Origin: a virus
IMG/VR virus record: IMGVR_UViG_3300032132_000755
Coordinates: 1-27,083 of that record
Length of the DNA: 27,083 nt
Reading direction: 5' to 3' (one strand)
Position numbers and translations under genes: made by a program. Under the pieces are notes generated by a model. The model was given only the letters and a program-made list of their open reading frames with translations, did no database searches and was not told where the DNA came from. Below are positions 1 to 17,564 of this stretch, piece by piece. Every line of letters begins with the position of its first letter. Positions within the stretch are counted from its first letter, which is position 1.

Positions 1-1194
1 TTACGTGGCTTCTTCGCAGCTACGGACCAATTTCGGACCAATTTGGAGCTTTTCCAGCTCCTGCCAGTCGTTGGACGAGTTAATCCAGCGCGCATAAGTC
101 GATAAGAGCATCTGCACGCTATGCCCGAGCTGTTGGGCGATAAATGCGGGGTTGAGACCAGACATTAAGCATATTGTCGCATAGGTGTGGCGGCAGTTAT
201 ACGGGGGGCGGTATCTGATCCCCAAGCCTTTAAGGATCGGGCGCCACTGGTGGTGCAGGTCCGACGTCTGCTTGACGTGCTCCCCATTCTTCCCAGGCGG
301 GAAGACGAACGGCGATTCGGTGAATTGCCCTTTGCCCAGCCTGCGGCGCTCTGCGTACTGCTTGGCGAACTCCAAGGCGTGCAAGGCCCTGTCGTTGAGC
401 AACACAAACCTATCCTTCCCTGTCTTCGTCCTTTCCTCAAGTACCCCGAGCGCGATCGTTCGCCGCACGTGGGCCGTCTTCCTGGTCGTATCGACCGCAT
501 CCCATCTCAATGCCAGGCCTTCGGACAAGCGTAGGCCAGTGAAGAATATGAACTCGAAGAACGCTGCATAGATCTGGCTCGGCCAATGAGGATGCTTGTA
601 CAGCTCGGCAATGATCAGATTCGCCTCGTCCAATGTAAAGGGATCGACCTCTTTCCTCGAGCGTGCTGGCAGCTGTATGGCTTCAGCCGGGTTCCTCGTG
701 ATCAGCCCGTCCAGTACCGCTGAGCGCAGGATGGTCGACAGCTTCACCATTGCGTTGCGTTTGACCGACGGTGAAGTCCAGGTTATGGAGGCGACGATTC
801 GCCTCAGGAGCGTCGACGTAATCAGATCAATACGCACCAAGGCGAGGTGGGGCACCCAGTACAGGTTCAGGGTGCCCTTATAGTTCAGCCTGGTACCAGC
901 TGCGATCTCACGACTGTCCAGCCACAACTGGGCGTATTCACCGAATGTTGGAACGCCGCCCACAACCGCGGCGGAACTGGGGAACAACTCCGCGTACTTG
1001 TCGTGGTCGAGGAGGTTTAGCTTGATCAGGCTGTTTACTTTATCGCGAAGCTGGGATGCAGCCTTGATGCCTTTTTGTGTCGGGGGGTAGGGAAGGGTCT
1101 CACTTCGGCGAGTACCTTCCCACATGAACCTGAGCCGGAGCGAGCCATAGTGGACGTCGATTCCAGGGGGTAAATCCATTGGCTTTCCAGCCAT
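1..1194 (-). CDS. int: Prophage integrase (tyrosine recombinase)
   Basis: This 397-aa site-specific tyrosine recombinase should catalyse attP x attB integration and, with the excisionase, excision. The N-terminal part (about 1-60) resembles the arm-binding DUF3596-type domain, a SAM-like core-binding domain follows (about 80-175), and the catalytic domain is C-terminal. Visible catalytic residues are Arg222 (TGLRLSE), Lys257 or Lys260 (TKTGK), Arg335 followed by His336 (NCRHTYAT), His358 (QLGHS) and the nucleophile Tyr367 (STYARW). The first His of the usual HxxR box is Tyr332, a variant I believe occurs in this phage subgroup. The ATG at 1192-1194 is preceded by AAAGAGGT at good spacing. The stop is at bases 1-3, so the gene is complete. 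The ribosome site and first 160 bases lie inside the upstream excisionase-like frame, so the two are translationally linked. It is the last gene of the leftward operon. The attachment site is presumably just left of the window. Confidence 0.96.
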   Translation of the reverse strand: MAGKPMDLPPGIDVHYGSLRLRFMWEGTRRSETLPYPPTQKGIKAASQLRDKVNSLIKLNLLDHDKYAELFPSSAAVVGGVPTFGEYAQLWLDSREIAAGTRLNYKGTLNLYWVPHLALVRIDLITSTLLRRIVASITWTSPSVKRNAMVKLSTILRSAVLDGLITRNPAEAIQLPARSRKEVDPFTLDEANLIIAELYKHPHWPSQIYAAFFEFIFFTGLRLSEGLALRWDAVDTTRKTAHVRRTIALGVLEERTKTGKDRFVLLNDRALHALEFAKQYAERRRLGKGQFTESPFVFPPGKNGEHVKQTSDLHHQWRPILKGLGIRYRPPYNCRHTYATICLMSGLNPAFIAQQLGHSVQMLLSTYARWINSSNDWQELEKLQIGPKLVRSCEEAT

Positions 1195-3813: not shown

Positions 3814-4026
3814 ATGAGTACTACTAGAACCAGAAACGGTGTAACCGTCACGGTTGGCAACATGACCGGGAAGCCTGATGCTCTGGGTGGCTGGGTTGTT
3901 GAGGAGATCTTGATAAATGGCGAGAAGATCGATCACAAATCACAGGCTTGGCAAACTGAAGAGGACGCTTTCCTGCGAGCCTTCAGTATCGCCAATACCG
4001 AAATAGACAAGCTCAAGCGGCGATAG
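3814..4026 (+). CDS. Small unknown cargo protein, 70 aa
   Basis: This 70-aa protein begins MSTTRTRNGVTVTVGN. It shows an N-terminal beta-rich stretch and a C-terminal helix ending in basic residues (KLKRR). There is no signal peptide, membrane segment or known motif. A very strong ribosome site (CAGGAGGG) lies 6 bases before the ATG. It runs opposite to the leftward operon, and its last 14 bases overlap the 3' end of the methyltransferase gene tail to tail. It is likely expressed separately in the lysogen. The function is unknown. Confidence 0.72.
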   Translation: MSTTRTRNGVTVTVGNMTGKPDALGGWVVEEILINGEKIDHKSQAWQTEEDAFLRAFSIANTEIDKLKRR

Positions 4027-5872
4027 CACTCTCTCGGGCTGATCGCCAAGGGTCGTTGGCACGGGCCAAGGCGGCCATCGGTGGCGGGCTGACACTGTTG
4101 CCGCACATGTGCACCTGTTCAGTCTTGGTGAACGGCTTGCGGTCGGCGCCCTTGTCGATGATGTAGCTGGCCGGGAAGCCTTGGGCGCGGTAGAGCTCGT
4201 GCGGCTGCAGCATGCGCAGGCAGATGTCGACGATGACGTACGGGGTGCCCTTCACGAAGACGGTGACCAGGCCCAGGCGGTCCTTGGTGGTCACGGTCGG
4301 CGCCGGCGCGTCGCAGGCGCTGATGTTCTCTGTGCCGTAGTAGCTGATCAGAAACGCGGCCACGCGCAGGGCGCCTTCCTCATGCTCCTGCGACAGCTTG
4401 TACTCGACCAAGGCGTGGTGCTCGGCGCCGGCGGTCATTGTCGGCACCAGGTCATCTACGGGACGGCCTACGCAGTTGCGCCGGAGCGTGGCCAGGCTGG
4501 CGGTCACGAGGCGCTGCTGGCTGCCGGTGTTGGTGACCGTGGTCAGCGGCTCGTCCGCGCCCTTCGCTGGCGTGGTGTTGAACCCGGCGTTGGCCTGCTC
4601 AATGAACGCGGTGCAGACGCCCATGGCGTGCGCGGCGCCTGCTGGCCGCTTGTAGTTACCGCCACTGGTAACGGTGGGCACTGGTTCGGTGATGGCCGAG
4701 CCTTCGCTGTTGAAGCGGAATTTGACCAAGTGCGCCGATGCTAGGGCATGCCCGTTGCTGGCTGTGATAGTGCCAAGCGGTGAGCCCGCATCTTTGCAAC
4801 CATCCCCCCAACGCAGCACCCCGCCTGCTCTCCCATCGCCATGGGCAGCGTTAATCATGACGGGGCTTGCCATGGCGAAGGAGCCGCCGCGCGGCCAGGA
4901 GGTCACAGTGCGAAGTGGCTCATGCGCCGACTGGGCCAGTTCGCCCGACCAGTTGGCTATCGGCACGATGAAAGGCTGCGGGTTGTCCAGCACGAACTTC
5001 TTCATGCCCTTGGCCACACGGCGCAGCGTTGCGGCTGCCAGCTCCTTCTTGCGGCCGAAGATGCTCTTGCTCGGCACGCTCCAGTCGATGCAGTCGGCGG
5101 CTGTGCGCCACTTCTGCTGGCCTTTGGCTGGGTTCTTAGCGTGGGTCGGCTCAGGCCACACGATGGGCTGGCCGTCGCAGCGGGCGATCATGAACAGGCG
5201 CTCGCGGCTGGTGGGCGCGCCGAAGTCGCAGGCCTTGATGACGCGCCATTCCACCTGGTAGCCCATACCTTCGAGCAAGTGCACGAACCGGCGCCAGGTG
5301 ATGCCGCGACGTTTCGGGTCGGGGACCAGGAACTGCTGCTGCACCGGCACGCGTTCGCCGATGGCAGCCACGGTGCCGTCCAGCTTCATCACCCGCCCGG
5401 TAGCCTTGTCGCGCTTGGCGATCAGCGGACCCCACTGCAGGATCTGCTTCACGTTCTCCAGGCTGATGACCCGCGGCCGCTTCTTGCCGGCCCACTTCAG
5501 TCCAATCCAAGACAGGTTGCGGATCTCGCGCTTTCGCGGCTGGCCGCCGGCGGCCTGGCTGTGGTGGGTGCAGTCTGGGCTCATGTGGAACCAGCCAACT
5601 GGTCGGCCCTGGCATTCCTCATCCGGGTCACCCTCGAAAACGTCGGTGGTGAAGTGGCGCGCTGCAGGGTGGTTGGCGGTGTGCATGCTGATGGCTGCGG
5701 GGCTGTGGTTCTTGGCCACGGTCACCGGCCGGCCCAGACCTATTTCCAGGCCGGTGCCGGCGCCGCCACCACCGCAGAAGAAGTCCACCACGATTTCATC
5801 GTCTTGCGGGTCGAAGCCGAGGGCGTACTGGGTTTTGAAGTCGAGCGGGTTCTTTTTCTGGAATGCAGACAT
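4013..5872 (-). CDS. C5-cytosine DNA methyltransferase, phage type
   Basis: This 619-aa enzyme transfers a methyl group from S-adenosylmethionine to cytosine C5 in DNA. Motif I is DFFCGGGGAGTGLE from residue 30. Motif IV has the catalytic Cys101 in SPDCTHHS, so it reads PDC instead of the textbook PPC; this belongs to the SPDC subfamily seen in phages. Motif VI is ENV (139-141), motif VIII is RERLFMIA (223-230) and motif X is MCGNSVSPP (589-597). The region between VIII and X is long (about 350 residues) and carries six copies of a (V/L/A)PxTVTs-type motif starting near 318, 364, 396, 441, 474 and 522. Canonical enzymes have a single equivalent, so the target-recognition region is probably built from repeats. 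GAGGA precedes the ATG. It likely protects phage DNA from host restriction. The recognition sequence cannot be read from the protein. Confidence 0.95.
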   Translation of the reverse strand: MSAFQKKNPLDFKTQYALGFDPQDDEIVVDFFCGGGGAGTGLEIGLGRPVTVAKNHSPAAISMHTANHPAARHFTTDVFEGDPDEECQGRPVGWFHMSPDCTHHSQAAGGQPRKREIRNLSWIGLKWAGKKRPRVISLENVKQILQWGPLIAKRDKATGRVMKLDGTVAAIGERVPVQQQFLVPDPKRRGITWRRFVHLLEGMGYQVEWRVIKACDFGAPTSRERLFMIARCDGQPIVWPEPTHAKNPAKGQQKWRTAADCIDWSVPSKSIFGRKKELAAATLRRVAKGMKKFVLDNPQPFIVPIANWSGELAQSAHEPLRTVTSWPRGGSFAMASPVMINAAHGDGRAGGVLRWGDGCKDAGSPLGTITASNGHALASAHLVKFRFNSEGSAITEPVPTVTSGGNYKRPAGAAHAMGVCTAFIEQANAGFNTTPAKGADEPLTTVTNTGSQQRLVTASLATLRRNCVGRPVDDLVPTMTAGAEHHALVEYKLSQEHEEGALRVAAFLISYYGTENISACDAPAPTVTTKDRLGLVTVFVKGTPYVIVDICLRMLQPHELYRAQGFPASYIIDKGADRKPFTKTEQVHMCGNSVSPPPMAALARANDPWRSARESAIAA

Positions 5873-6652: not shown

Positions 6653-7267
6653 ATGGCGGGAGCTGATTTTATAGATTGTGTGTTTCATGGTATTGGAGGT
6701 ACAGCAATAGATGCTGAGGGTGCTGGGGATTGTACCTTTACTAACTGTTCAATGGTTGGTAGTGTCGATTTAAATAGCAGCCAAGGTAATGTTTTTCGCA
6801 ACTCAAATATATACTCAAAATCTAAGCTAGAGCTGCCGTTCAATATGGGGCTTAATAAGTCGTGCTTTTGCGGTTCCGGAAAAAAATTCAAACGCTGTCA
6901 TGGGAGTGAAAAGAGAGTGGCTACAGGAATTAAAAGCTACAACAGCGATGCGACATTTGAGGGGACGAAAATCGTGACCGACGGCGTAGGCATCGATCTG
7001 GATAGTGACAGAAGCAAATTTAACGACACAGTGATTATTGCTGGTTCGGAGATTGACTACGTTGCGCTCGCTAAGGGTTGGGGTATTCCTGATAGTGTCC
7101 CGATCGACCATGTGAAGGAGGCTGTTGAAGATGTCAAGAGGACTAAGAATCCGGGTGTCCTCGATAAATCTAGGCTGAAAGTTTTCCTGGCTAACAATGG
7201 GTTCGATATGGCCTGCTGGGCTCAGATCGCACTTTCAATTGTTACGTACTGCTTTGCCCCTTCTTGA
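6653..7267 (+). CDS. SEC-C motif protein with beta-helix-like repeats (cargo gene)
   Basis: This 204-aa protein contains a textbook SEC-C zinc motif, CFCGSGKKFKRCHG, with Cys71, Cys73, Cys82 and His83 as ligands. Segments on both sides (about 4-60 and 92-132) show short beta-repeats with regularly placed Phe, Asn, Gly and Asp (for example FIDCVFHG, TFTNCSMVG, VFRNSNI, TFEGTKIVTDG, KFNDTVIIAG), typical of right-handed beta-helix or pentapeptide-like coils. A helical segment (about 147-185) and a hydrophobic C-terminus (WAQIALSIVTYCF) follow. AAGGAT precedes the ATG. Codon and base use are clearly AT-richer than the neighbours, and it opposes the leftward operon, both signs of recently acquired cargo. 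SEC-C motifs are known as appended metal-binding modules (SecA and others). The function here is unknown; defence or interaction with host nucleic acids is speculation. Confidence 0.78.
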   Translation: MAGADFIDCVFHGIGGTAIDAEGAGDCTFTNCSMVGSVDLNSSQGNVFRNSNIYSKSKLELPFNMGLNKSCFCGSGKKFKRCHGSEKRVATGIKSYNSDATFEGTKIVTDGVGIDLDSDRSKFNDTVIIAGSEIDYVALAKGWGIPDSVPIDHVKEAVEDVKRTKNPGVLDKSRLKVFLANNGFDMACWAQIALSIVTYCFAPS

Positions 7268-13044: not shown

Positions 13045-13145
13045 TGCGCCAGTCCAAGCTGACAAAGTCCGCCCGTCAGTATCACGCCGAGGGCGTCATG
13101 CGTACTCAGGTTCTGCCACTGCGTGAGGGGTTTGTTTTTGTATGA
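13044..13145 (+). pseudogene. Internally deleted remnant of a YbcO/DUF1364 nuclease gene
   Basis: This 33-codon frame is joined to both neighbours by overlapping stop/start codons (TGATG at its start, ATGA at its end). Its first 11 residues (MRQSKLTKSAR) match the N-terminus, and its last ~20 (HAEGVMRTQVLPLREGF) the C-terminus, of the roughly 95-aa YbcO/DUF1364 family as I remember it. The middle, with the CxxC and His metal ligands, is absent. An in-frame deletion therefore left a short, still translated peptide that keeps translational coupling to the recombinase. It could instead be an unrelated small coupled peptide. Matches are from memory. Confidence 0.55.
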
Positions 13146-14467
13146 GTGCAACTGTGGCGGTGAAATTGTCCGACGCTGAAATCCGACGCCAGGCGGCTGT
13201 GCTTGGGGTGCGCGATCTGCGCGACCCTCGCCAACCCGGTTTGAGGTTTCGATTCGACCTGAACCGTCAGGCTGGTACTTGGTACTTGGTCGTTCGCCGC
13301 AAGTGGAATCGGCTGGCTCGCTTTCCCGAGTATGGTTCGGCAGCTATCTTCGCCGAACTGCCTAGGCTACGGCAGCGCTTGTTGGGACGCCCGGACGAGC
13401 CAGTAGCATTGGCTGGTCTGGTGACGTTCGCCGACCTATTGGCCTGGTTCAAGGGACGCGCCACAAGTGACGCCTCGTTGTCCGTTTCGTGGAAAAGTAC
13501 CGTTCGCACGGTGGTGGATAAGCACCTGCAGCCCCGTCTTGGTGATCTGCCGATACTCGCATTGACTCCCGCAATGCTGGACAAAACGCTGATGTGGCCG
13601 CTCCAGGCTGAATGTTCCATCTCTTACGTTCGGCAGATTTTCAGGGTGCTCAGCCTAGCCGTGAGCACGGCGCGCGGGCTTGGGCTGATCCCCAGTAACC
13701 CCATGGCTGAAATGAAGTTCACGAATTTCATCAAGACCAAGATTTCGGCGAGGGACGGGCGGCTGCGCGCCGACCACCTGCGTGAGGTTGTACCCGCGCT
13801 GGGAGCGCTCTTTGATGCCTCGCCTGTCGACGCGATGCTGGCACTGCTGATGATCTGCCACGGCACTCGAGTGGGTGAGAGCCGGCGGGCAGAGTGGCCT
13901 GACTTCGCTTTGGGGCATGCGGAGTGGTTCATACCAGCCAAACACACCAAGACGCGCACCGAGCACCGACTGCCGCTGACGGCGCAGGTGTGCGCACTAC
14001 TGCGCAGGTACCGCGCCACCCAGATCGAAAGCGGGTACTCCGGCAAATACTTGTTCCCTGGTCGTAAAGGGCAGCCGATGAGTGCCAGCCAGGCCTCGTC
14101 GGTGTTCCGTCGTTTGGCTAGCCGTAAATGGTCGAGCCATGACCTGCGCAAGGTGGCGCGCACCGCCTGGCTCGACATGGGCGTGGATGGGTTTATAGGC
14201 GAAATGCTGCTTAACCACTCACTCGGAAAGGTTGCTGATACCTACATCAAAACGAAGGGCAACGGCCTCCGTCGTGAGGCCCTCGAGCAATGGCACGAAT
14301 GGTTAGACGAGATTGGGTTTGCAGCCATTCACGGGTTGACGGGTGTGCAATCCGCAATTTCTCACAACGGGCCACAGGCCAAACCACGCAAGGCGCGCAG
14401 CCCAATCAACGAATTAGTTACAGGGGAGAATGCAGAACGTGAAAAATCGCCTTCAGGATGGCTTTAA
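13142..14467 (+). CDS. Second tyrosine recombinase
   Basis: This 441-aa recombinase is unrelated in sequence to the integrase at the left end. A DUF4102-like or arm-type N-terminus (1-85) and a core-binding domain (about 92-195) precede a catalytic domain with a complete active site: Arg243 (CHGTRVGE), Lys270 (KHTKTR), His333 and Arg336 (SSHDLRKVAR), His359 (LLNHS) and Tyr368 (VADTYIK). It lies in the rightward early operon where lambdoid phages keep recombination genes, coupled by ATGA to the YbcO remnant, so it would be made during lytic growth rather than with int and xis. Possible jobs are resolution of replicating multimers, inversion or a second integration site. The extra C-terminal ~60 residues are basic and unrecognised. 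Confidence 0.9.
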   Translation: MSATVAVKLSDAEIRRQAAVLGVRDLRDPRQPGLRFRFDLNRQAGTWYLVVRRKWNRLARFPEYGSAAIFAELPRLRQRLLGRPDEPVALAGLVTFADLLAWFKGRATSDASLSVSWKSTVRTVVDKHLQPRLGDLPILALTPAMLDKTLMWPLQAECSISYVRQIFRVLSLAVSTARGLGLIPSNPMAEMKFTNFIKTKISARDGRLRADHLREVVPALGALFDASPVDAMLALLMICHGTRVGESRRAEWPDFALGHAEWFIPAKHTKTRTEHRLPLTAQVCALLRRYRATQIESGYSGKYLFPGRKGQPMSASQASSVFRRLASRKWSSHDLRKVARTAWLDMGVDGFIGEMLLNHSLGKVADTYIKTKGNGLRREALEQWHEWLDEIGFAAIHGLTGVQSAISHNGPQAKPRKARSPINELVTGENAEREKSPSGWL

Positions 14468-14763: not shown

Positions 14764-15153
14764 ATGATGATTCGCAAACCGGCAGGGCGACCATTGGGAG
14801 ACACTGAGTACTTGTTGGAGCAGTGGGGGTGGTGGCGGATGGATGGGAGCGGAGTTCCAAACTACATATCGCCAACCTTCGCCCTGATGCGGCAGGCAGT
14901 GCCGCAGCCATCGGCGAGCAAAAACTATTGCATCACCGATGATTGGGCACTGGGCATCGACAATGCTGTTGCCCGTCTTGCGGCCCGCGATCAGCAGATG
15001 GGGGACATTATCTGGCTGTACTACGGAGCAAAATGGCCGATGGTGCGAGTGGGCAAGCACTATGGCATCAGCGAGGGGAAAGCGAGGGAGCTGGCTAGAG
15101 CGGGGGCCGCATGGATCGATTGTGCCGTCGGATCAATGCGACAAGTTTCTTGA
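14764..15153 (+). CDS. Q-type late antiterminator
   Basis: This 129-aa protein has the layout of the phage antiterminator Q family (the type with YLLEQWGWWRMDGSGVPNY, then ITDDWALGIDNAVARL, IIWLYYGAKWPM and an HTH-like GISEGKARELARAGAAWID). It should modify RNA polymerase near the late promoter and let it read through terminators into the lysis and head genes. AGGGGATTGAAGGG precedes the ATG. It is the last gene of the rightward early operon, as Q is in lambdoid phages. A DNA-binding qut site next to its late promoter was not identified. Confidence 0.82.
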   Translation: MMIRKPAGRPLGDTEYLLEQWGWWRMDGSGVPNYISPTFALMRQAVPQPSASKNYCITDDWALGIDNAVARLAARDQQMGDIIWLYYGAKWPMVRVGKHYGISEGKARELARAGAAWIDCAVGSMRQVS

Positions 15154-15271
15154 TTTATTGACGAACGCTACACACCAAGTGAGAAAATCCCCTTTTGACA
15201 TCCCATGGCAGGAAAACTCGTGGCTATAGACAAATTATGATGAACACTCGATTCTTTCCAGGCGGAGTTTT

Positions 15272-15300
15272 TTGTTCTTGAGCTAGATGTGCTGTATATT
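15272..15300 (+). promoter_or_regulatory. Promoter of the nuclease cargo gene
   Basis: TTGTTC (15272-15277), a 17-base spacer and TATATT (15295-15300) lie 87 bases before the GTG start of the 528-aa gene. Spacing is ideal and the -10 is near-consensus. It gives the cargo gene expression independent of Q and of the repressor. Confidence 0.6.
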
Positions 15301-15387
15301 CAGGCGGGAAGCGGCTTTGATCTGGGTTGTAATAAAGTCTAAGGCATTATTACAAGATTTATTTGTGATTAGGTAGGAGGCTGAGTA

Positions 15388-16974
15388 GTGTCAAGGGATA
15401 ATTTTTTTTTCAAAGATTCCTCGAGAATTTACAGGCAGGCTAATGAGCTGGCTAAATTTCTACGTCAAGGTATTCGCGATGGGGATGAATGGTTTTCAGA
15501 TGTAACTAAATTGCTGGCGTTGAATGGGCTGGACTCTCTGGGAAATGATGAAGAGCGTAAACGCGCCGTTGAACTTGCGTGGGAGCATGCTAAATCAATT
15601 GCAGGCACGATTGATCCCCGGATCGCGATTCCAGCGTTATTAGAGTCGGTGGACGATTTTTATTATCGTGACACAAGTTGGAAGCAAGAGGTTCCGATTT
15701 GCGGTTCCGCGCTGAAAAGCTCAATAGCAATGATCTGGCCAAACATTCAGTCGCAGTTCGCGGTTGATAAAAGTGCTGATCGATTGCTAAAACTGGTCTA
15801 TGCGGTCATGGCATGGGAGCAATTGGTCGGGAACGAAGAACATTGTAGCGTTTTTGGGTTCGGTCCCGTTACACTCAATTCCACCGGTTTTTCGTACTCG
15901 TCCGAAAGAGACGAAACCCTGATGGCGCAATGGAATGAAATGGCCTCGCCTTATGGCGCGGCACAGCGAACATTAGAACATTCCAAGCAGGTGATATTTC
16001 GAGATCCCCATGCATTTTCTGAGGCCGTGACGCGAGTGCTAAACGGAGAGAGGTCGAGCACGATAGAGCTATTCAGGGATACCCTGTTCGCGTCCGTGGG
16101 AGAGAACCCGGACTTCTGGCTTGGACTAAGATCTCGCGTGACTTTGCTTGCATTCGCGGCACGGTTCAAACTGGCTGGAGCCCAGGATTTTAGCGGGGTG
16201 GTCTTGTTTGAAGAGTTTGCTGCAGAACTTCAAGTCGGTCCACACGCTGCTTCGGCAAAATTGAGCACAGAAGCCTGCTTTTGGAAAGTGGATTGGTACA
16301 ATAATCGAGTGAAGGGGTCGCCAGCCAATATGTTGGTCGAAAGGCCAGTGCTGCGCATCGATAAAACAACCTTTGCTACCTCGGTATTGACCATCATGGA
16401 TTCTATTAACTGTTTTGTTGAGAACTCGGTTTTTTCCAACGTTGGTTACGGCGGCGCAACTGTAAAATCCGATGCATTTCAGCTGCATTTCTCGCGGCCT
16501 TTTGAGCAAGAAGCTGTGGATCTTTTCCTTGAGGCAGGTTGGAAAGCCAGCGGGGTTAGCGATACCGGCTACTGGGCAGCAGGAAATTGTCAATTGGTGC
16601 GTCCTGGGGGGGGGAAAGTCCCTGGAGAAATTGATGTTTTGGCGCTGCACCCTTCCGGTTTATACGCTCTAGTCGTTGAGTGCAAAGTACTTACGCAGCC
16701 TTTTTCAAGGAGCAAGCTGACAAATGTGGTTGGCAAACTAGGCCCGGATGATCAAGCGGGCTTTCATTCAAACCTTGAAAGGAAGGTCAACTGGCTAGCA
16801 AAAGAGTCTGTTTTACAAGGGACTGATGTGGTGGGAGCTTTATTGGTCGACCAAGGAAGTTTTCTCGGCGAGGGTGCAGTCAATCCAGTTATGGATCTGG
16901 AGGGTCTGCATGCATTACTCACCTACTTGAATAAGAATATAGACTCTGACACAGCAACATCAGCGAGAAGCTAA
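15388..16974 (+). CDS. PD-(D/E)XK nuclease-like protein, putative defence cargo
   Basis: This 528-aa protein has a C-terminal restriction-endonuclease-like fold: helix with Glu373/Glu375 (PFEQEAVDLFLEAGW), then Asp416 in GEIDVLALH and Glu431-x-Lys433 in YALVVECK, giving D-x14-ExK, followed by basic and hydrophobic helices. The first ~350 residues are helical and acidic, with no motif I know; they could be a sensor or partner-binding region. The start is GTG at 15388 with TAGGAGG about 8 bases upstream. The gene has its own promoter and is followed by two terminators. Base use is AT-richer than neighbouring phage genes. It lies between Q and the holin, a frequent site for anti-phage cargo in temperate phages. 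Homopolymers of nine T (15402-15410) and nine G (16606-16614) sit in the coding sequence. Nuclease activity and defence are inference. Confidence 0.72.
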   Translation: MSRDNFFFKDSSRIYRQANELAKFLRQGIRDGDEWFSDVTKLLALNGLDSLGNDEERKRAVELAWEHAKSIAGTIDPRIAIPALLESVDDFYYRDTSWKQEVPICGSALKSSIAMIWPNIQSQFAVDKSADRLLKLVYAVMAWEQLVGNEEHCSVFGFGPVTLNSTGFSYSSERDETLMAQWNEMASPYGAAQRTLEHSKQVIFRDPHAFSEAVTRVLNGERSSTIELFRDTLFASVGENPDFWLGLRSRVTLLAFAARFKLAGAQDFSGVVLFEEFAAELQVGPHAASAKLSTEACFWKVDWYNNRVKGSPANMLVERPVLRIDKTTFATSVLTIMDSINCFVENSVFSNVGYGGATVKSDAFQLHFSRPFEQEAVDLFLEAGWKASGVSDTGYWAAGNCQLVRPGGGKVPGEIDVLALHPSGLYALVVECKVLTQPFSRSKLTNVVGKLGPDDQAGFHSNLERKVNWLAKESVLQGTDVVGALLVDQGSFLGEGAVNPVMDLEGLHALLTYLNKNIDSDTATSARS

Positions 16975-17101
16975 GGCTTATAGCGTGATAGTCAATTCCG
17001 TGCAAACGCTCGAAATGACAACGAAGTACTTTTCCGCGCGGAATAGATGTGTTTTTATAGCAGAGTGTGTTGCTGTGAACGCACCACGACACCTTCAAAA
17101 G

Positions 17102-17125
17102 CCCGGTTAATGAGCCGGGTTTTTT
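17102..17125 (+). terminator. Rho-independent terminator after the nuclease gene
   Basis: CCCGG (17102-17106) and CCGGG (17115-17119), with wobble extension of the stem, are followed by six T residues. It ends the cargo transcript. Confidence 0.85.
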
Positions 17126-17138
17126 GTGCCCATTTACA

Positions 17139-17165
17139 AGCCCTGCCATCGTGCGGGGCTTTTTC
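17139..17165 (+). terminator. Second tandem terminator
   Basis: AGCCC (17139-17143) and GGGCT (17156-17160) with inner GC pairs are followed by five T residues. It lies 80 bases upstream of the holin start. Late transcripts must pass both terminators, consistent with Q-type antitermination. Confidence 0.75.
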
Positions 17166-17243
17166 GTTTTCGGCCCCATGCCTGACTCCTTGCTACGAGC
17201 GGATGCCAGCGCCATGGAGGCCGAACCTATTTGAGGACTGCAG

Positions 17244-17564
17244 ATGAACACTGAGCACCAAGCGCTCGCCGATGTACCCCTTTGGCTTTTGGTGTTGTTG
17301 AGCATGGCTGGGCTGTCTGGGGAAATGCTGAGGGCATCAGGCACTGATCTTGCTCTTCGGCAGATCCTGCAGCGTGTAGCCCTGCGCTTTCTAGCGTCTG
17401 GCTTGCTCGGCATGGCAACGCTGCTGCTCGCCATGGCACTGTGGAACAACCTCTACCTTGCGGCCGGCTTGGGTATTGTCATTGCGGTCATCGGGGCTGA
17501 TGTCGCAGGAGGCCTTTACACTCAGTTTCTAGCTAAGCGGGCAGGGGTTCAGTCTGGAAAATAA
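17244..17564 (+). CDS. Phage holin
   Basis: This 106-aa membrane protein has three hydrophobic stretches (about 12-27, 45-65 and 69-92), the class I holin topology, plus the lambda-S-like LSMAGLSGEMLRA turn after the first helix. It should form the membrane lesions that time lysis. GAGGA lies 7 bases before the ATG. It is the first gene of the late operon after the tandem terminators. No endolysin or Rz is visible in the window, so those are probably further right among the tail genes. Confidence 0.83.
   Translation: MNTEHQALADVPLWLLVLLSMAGLSGEMLRASGTDLALRQILQRVALRFLASGLLGMATLLLAMALWNNLYLAAGLGIVIAVIGADVAGGLYTQFLAKRAGVQSGK

Follow-up and report, generated by a model that had tools for sequence, protein, structure and literature searches.

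The Q-holin interval of a 27 kb virus record (IMGVR_UViG_3300032132_000755), whose phage matches are nearly all to Pseudomonas, is occupied by a 528-aa open reading frame (ORF), and the question raised by this locus is what such a gene does for the phage or its host. A first-pass annotation of the DNA had proposed a self-contained, PD-(D/E)XK nuclease-like cargo gene with a role in defence or superinfection exclusion. We analyzed the gene within the full 27,083-nucleotide stretch (hereafter the window) and compared it with its homologues and with the equivalent intervals of sister phages. Our favored explanation, which we consider likely, is that the gene encodes a single-gene anti-phage (or anti-mobile-element) nuclease carried as exchangeable prophage cargo, its defence function being deduced from association.

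The ORF starts with a GTG that lies 7 nt behind an AGGAGG (Table 1), and in an alignment of seven homologues this start falls on the ATG of those from Pseudomonas. The AT-rich composition remarked upon earlier was evident, with a GC content of 48.8% (48% at third codon positions, GC3) for the ORF vs 60.7% for the remainder of the window and a GC3 of 70-78% for two backbone genes included for comparison; an AT-rich gene in a GC-richer backbone indicates recent acquisition. The only homologue pair that was unsaturated yielded a dN/dS of 0.15 with constraint on both halves of the protein, and, as judged from these sequences, the gene is under purifying selection. Based on this ratio and on a motif that is invariant in the seven homologues, the ORF is not a chance frame. 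No family was assigned to the protein by Pfam, NCBIfam, PADLOC (E up to 10) or PHROGs (E up to 1), closely matching phage proteins of structural or metabolic function were not found, and an Rfam search of the window gave no match. A HigA-type antitoxin identity for residues 211-280, suggested by phmmer against the PDB at E 0.23 and worse, was dismissed as chance.

Table 1. Positions of features at and around the 528-aa cargo gene, numbered from the first nucleotide of the window.
Feature	Position	Strand	Remarks
Q-like antiterminator, left hotspot edge	14764..15153	+	PHROG 79, E 6e-28
Inserted cargo unit	15154..17028	+	From Q stop codon to first base of backbone common with L037 empty site
Near-perfect inverted repeat TTGTAATAA-N11-TTATTACAA	15327..15355	.	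9-bp arms, 11 nt apart, just 5' of cargo start
AGGAGG ribosome-binding site	15375..15380	+	7 nt 5' of GTG; read from sequence
Single-gene cargo, 528 aa	15388..16974	+	N-terminal helical region and C-terminal PD-(D/E)XK nuclease (predicted)
R319-P320 in conserved pre-nuclease motif RPvLrID	16342..16347	+	Common to Upx and 1237-aa relative
PD-(D/E)XK nuclease domain, residues about 371-520	16498..16947	+	Models, structure and profile comparison
GEID motif, residues 413-416	16624..16635	+	Predicted catalytic D416
ECK motif, residues 431-433	16678..16686	+	Predicted catalytic E431 and K433
Terminator-like hairpin, phage backbone	17102..17126	+	Conserved in sister phages
Terminator-like hairpin, phage backbone	17138..17161	+	
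Holin-like small protein, right hotspot edge	17244..17564	+	PHROG 3897, weak holin matches

The C-terminal half of the protein almost certainly adopts a PD-(D/E)XK nuclease fold. A full-length AF2 model, built with four rows of the window family only, was of poor mean quality (pLDDT 47.9), and the best structural match of its C-terminal core was to residues 1123-1272, the C-terminal nuclease, of the defence protein Upx (PADLOC PDLC02221), for which a cryo-EM structure exists (9wuf; Z 10.8, 3.5 A, 125 aligned). A second model, restricted to residues 293-528, had a pLDDT of 80-91 in most core blocks and matched Upx at Z 12.2, with a runner-up of 8.7 (Cdn1, followed by Hjc and Can2). The extra likeness of this second model to Upx is not independent, since Upx rows were included in its alignment, while the full-length model is independent in this respect. 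In both models DSSP assigned the order alpha-beta-beta-beta-alpha-beta to the C-terminal core, and the structure comparisons thus agree with the nuclease assignment of the first-pass annotation; neither of the outcomes that it had named as refuting (lack of a nuclease fold, or close resemblance to a known structural or metabolic protein of phages) came about. The GEID-x14-ExK layout on which that assignment had been based is present as GEID-x14-ECK and was unchanged in each of the seven homologues, even at 25% identity, as were residues E373, D416, E431 and K433; the G, D, E, C and K core was also invariant between the 528-aa family and Upx. The modelled core fold and an active site composed of an acidic residue and (D/E)xK are both consistent with placement in the PD-(D/E)XK superfamily. 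The catalytic assignment comes from sequence and model prediction, which leaves room for a DNA-binding protein that retains the nuclease fold and is catalytically inactive; the conservation of the active-site residues among such divergent homologues, and of the core in Upx, makes this highly improbable. The substrate of the predicted nuclease is quite probably DNA.

Comparison of sequences also related this domain to Upx. When a profile of the family was searched against PDB sequences, Upx (9wuf) was the sole match (E 0.076), and hhalign of the family with Upx returned a Prob of 94% (P 1e-7), with P 1.2e-9 for residues 300-528 alone. The PADLOC Upx model matched one homologue (L006) at E 0.0047 over only 87 of its 1271 positions and, when searched against genomes, re-found another (G071). 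The C-terminal nuclease domain of the window protein is of the Upx type. A W...R...RP motif that precedes the nuclease is common to the family, Upx and the 1237-aa relative L097; the pre-nuclease stretch alone scored 19.7 against Upx, barely above the best of 60 shuffles (19.6), and similarity to Upx was not detected upstream of this motif. The PADLOC Upx model did not recognise the window protein (E up to 10). Thus, the two have in common a C-terminal PD-(D/E)XK domain with PG(D/E)ID...ECK, the preceding RP motif and a single-gene organization, whereas Upx is about 1270 aa (1254-1273 aa in four homologues) compared to 528 aa and has no detectable similarity to the N-terminal ~300 residues of the window protein. 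As neither the full-length architecture nor recognition by the PADLOC model is that of Upx, the protein was not filed as Upx, and the best reading is that it is Upx-like in its nuclease module and not an Upx member.

Gao and colleagues reportedly presented Upx in 2020 as an uncharacterised PD-(D/E)XK defence gene. Upx has been placed in a Pseudomonas island hotspot (PMC12629846) and listed under nucleic acid degradation (PMC10855318); no description of its mechanism was found in our literature search, where Upx appears as a catalogued system only. Two further single large genes, both undescribed, carry a similar nuclease signature and a similar stretch before it. L097:3475-7188, from Pseudomonadota, encodes a 1237-aa protein that has an Upx-like C-terminal signature and an unlike N-terminus and is matched by PADLOC Upx at E 0.007, and L106:4060-6738, which adjoins IS981 on the Lactococcus plasmid pFI430, encodes a hypothetical 892-aa protein with a C-terminus that resembles L097. 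The similarity of these two proteins to the window protein is weak and limited to the C-terminus, and their N-terminal parts are far longer and unlike.

More distant structural neighbours included NucS/EndoMS and other repair nucleases. With the Can2/Card1/Cdn1 CRISPR ancillary nucleases and Hjc resolvases, the PD-(D/E)XK core is common (Z 7-9) and nothing beyond the fold. The presence of Hjc, NucS/EndoMS and repair nucleases among the neighbours would suit a recombination, repair or packaging nuclease of the phage's own cycle, such as a Holliday-junction resolvase-like enzyme. However, Upx clearly outranks the resolvases structurally, the sister phages surveyed do not have the gene in their Q-holin intervals (one of which is empty), and lone chromosomal and plasmid copies exist outside of phages, so that we view an own-cycle nuclease as improbable.

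The conserved C-terminal region is preceded by about 300 residues, which were predicted to be mostly helical (at low confidence, in the full-length model) and had no detectable match. The helical character and the lack of a known motif described by the first-pass annotation were thus retained, whereas the length it had given for this region (~350 residues) was not. Residues 1-364 scored 20.0 against Upx 600-1110, with a shuffle maximum of 22.9, and the full-length model is poor for fold comparison; its low pLDDT is the reason why N-terminal fold matches were left uninterpreted. A CARF sensor domain was absent by Pfam. The chances that the N-terminal region serves as a sensor or gate of the nuclease appear about even.

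The location of the gene between Q and lysis, as annotated previously, was supported by the PHROG assignments of its two neighbours, and genes for a minor tail protein and terminase were found downstream of the holin-like protein. To this site in the window were added 64 unique Q-holin intervals from 80 contigs that were retrieved with the holin-like protein. These 65 intervals ranged from 264 to 3143 bp and were hypervariable, with many unrelated genes; one sister phage (L037) had an empty interval, and the 528-aa gene was absent from all of the sister intervals surveyed. When 30 cargo proteins from 29 intervals were scanned with PADLOC (E 1e-6 or better), 10 proteins from 9 intervals were matched and 20 intervals had no match. 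The matches were to an OLD/AriA-like protein, a PARIS AriA and AriB pair, DzbA (389/393 aligned), PDC-S49, PDC-M25B, PDC-S31, a GajA/AriA-like ATPase and, more weakly, DUF4238-Pers and PDC-S58, and Pfam detected in addition ApeA, GmrSD and NACHT/STAND domains. In a control, up to 4 of the 26 proteins encoded by the window backbone also matched PADLOC, by way of generic methyltransferase and HTH models. With this backbone rate and with 20 of the 29 intervals unmatched, the enrichment by count appears modest, and it is the full-length matches to named systems that carry the argument. The 528-aa gene is cargo in a defence-rich, variable locus, and the earlier view that related phages use this site for anti-phage genes is upheld. 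The antiviral hotspots of P2-like phages and P4 satellites (PMC9122126) similarly have interchangeable defence genes at a fixed backbone position, but in another phage group and at another position than the Q to holin interval of a lambda-like Pseudomonas phage. Among intervals L017-L096, recurrent cargo clusters with tested representatives that had no PADLOC match are candidate new defence families: c2 (318-357 aa), c3 (442-481), c4 (509-518), c6 (298-314), c7 (345) and c11 (512-522).

The near-consensus promoter that had been ascribed to the gene was not recovered: no sigma-70-like promoter of at least 9/12 was found in 15100-17300 compared to 2.0 expected by chance, and the TTGACA at 15195 lacks a fitting -10 element at a distance of 16-18 nt. 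Two terminator-like hairpins are indeed located behind the gene; however, the backbone alignment with the empty-site phage L037 begins at window position 17029, before both hairpins, which therefore belong to the shared backbone and not to the cargo as had been thought. The TTGTAATAA/TTATTACAA inverted repeat was not seen upstream of the homologues and is a possible candidate for an operator or mRNA hairpin. A gene that lies downstream of Q on the same strand as the late genes, with no promoter of its own detected, might be expressed late as a counter-defence factor or a modulator of lysis or late genes. By contrast, in 21 of the 65 intervals the largest cargo ORF runs opposite to the late genes, so that late transcription is not the general driver of cargos at this site, and the plasmid and chromosomal family members have no late operon; a late function of this type is accordingly given a low probability.

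Full-length homologues were identified in Pseudomonas farris (68% identity), a second Pseudomonas-type prophage (L107, 58%), two further Pseudomonas chromosomes (53-54%) and two mobilizable Lactococcus plasmids (25-27%). The prophage homologue was found only when viral contigs were scanned with a C-terminal alignment, and its own scan returned itself alone; scans of the viral contigs with the window protein, a six-row alignment and the Lactococcus and L006 homologues revealed no further relatives. Phage records yielded one chance-level match (E 3) for the window protein and none for a Lactococcus homologue. Genome samples of about 400 each were taken from the genus, phylum and class, and the family is rare, as the phylum- and class-wide samples added no full-length member.

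The homologues reside in differing surroundings. On the Lactococcus plasmids the gene is surrounded by IS elements, mobilization genes and other accessory genes, while in the second prophage it is terminal, with tRNA-Gly and a pseudouridine-synthase-like host gene close by. In P. farris the homologue is part of an island (L003:8566-12491) that also holds a GIY-YIG-like gene related to PDC-S57 (E 3e-23) and, starting 5 bp downstream of the homologue, a gene for an HNH protein; an integrase gene adjoins. In the two other Pseudomonas chromosomes, the gene has been inserted cleanly, and by itself, between LysR and DUF2167, which are separated by a gap of about 100 bp in the closest relative without the gene and are adjacent in further Pseudomonas genomes. 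No partner gene recurs across the prophages, island, chromosomes and plasmids, and thus the gene probably functions by itself. Together with the empty L037 site and the hypervariable intervals, these insertions agree with the self-contained cargo proposed at the outset. PD-(D/E)XK homing enzymes exist, and the clean insertion between LysR and DUF2167 and the several kinds of element that carry the gene could also be accounted for by a homing endonuclease or selfish mobile gene that cuts the empty allele. Homing targets are conserved, whereas the upstream DNA (the only side compared) had no sequence common to the host contexts except for the two orthologous Pseudomonas chromosomes, which argues against homing. 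Moreover, unrelated cargos occupy the same Q-holin site, and the large conserved N-terminal region would be superfluous for homing; this origin of the insertions is, in our estimate, unlikely to a similar degree as a late function.

Other genes of the window were also of note. Two are tyrosine-recombinase-like, at 1-1194 (-) and 13142-14467 (+), the second shortly before Q, and phage PseuP_224 likewise carries a gene for a site-specific integrase close to Q. A second cargo gene of the window may be the 204-aa ORF at 6653-7267, which is beside backbone genes and has a CFCGSGKKFKRCHG (SEC-C-like) motif; its matches to PADLOC E2 do not extend beyond this motif. In the early region, 4013-5872 (-) encodes a 619-aa cytosine-methyltransferase-like protein, probably an orphan methylase.

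Because its slot holds known anti-virus genes in sister viruses, the 528-aa gene most likely constitutes an immune system by itself, and by this association defence is its probable biological role. In a lysogen, the helical N-terminal ~300 residues would sense an infection-specific signal or restrain the nuclease in uninfected cells; upon infection, the C-terminal domain would cut DNA, either that of incoming or replicating foreign elements or, in abortive infection, all DNA of the cell. Like other defence cargo, the prophage would have to escape self-harm on induction. Several points count against this explanation: the enrichment of defence genes at the site is modest by count, the N-terminal region has neither detectable homology to Upx nor a confident model, no promoter was recognisable, such that expression in the lysogen is an assumption, and the failure of PADLOC to recognise the protein itself may weigh against a defence reading. 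A soluble nuclease is poorly suited to superinfection exclusion in its strict sense, in which entry is blocked at the envelope.

There is perhaps an even chance that this protein introduces a single-gene defence family that has gone unrecognised, as the first of its members to be described. Such a family would be sparsely distributed across phyla (Pseudomonas, Lactococcus) and would join a new helical sensor region to an Upx-type nuclease; with Upx, L097 (1237 aa) and the pFI430 protein, it would define a wider immune class of variable sensors and a shared nuclease. If the defence reading is true, a compact and testable relative of Upx is gained; at 528 aa it lends itself better to expression, mutagenesis and structure determination than Upx with its 1270 aa, and recognition of infection by this class of nuclease would become directly testable. 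The Q-holin interval of these Pseudomonas phages would, likewise, be marked as a defence hotspot, in which dozens of cargos are still unclassified.
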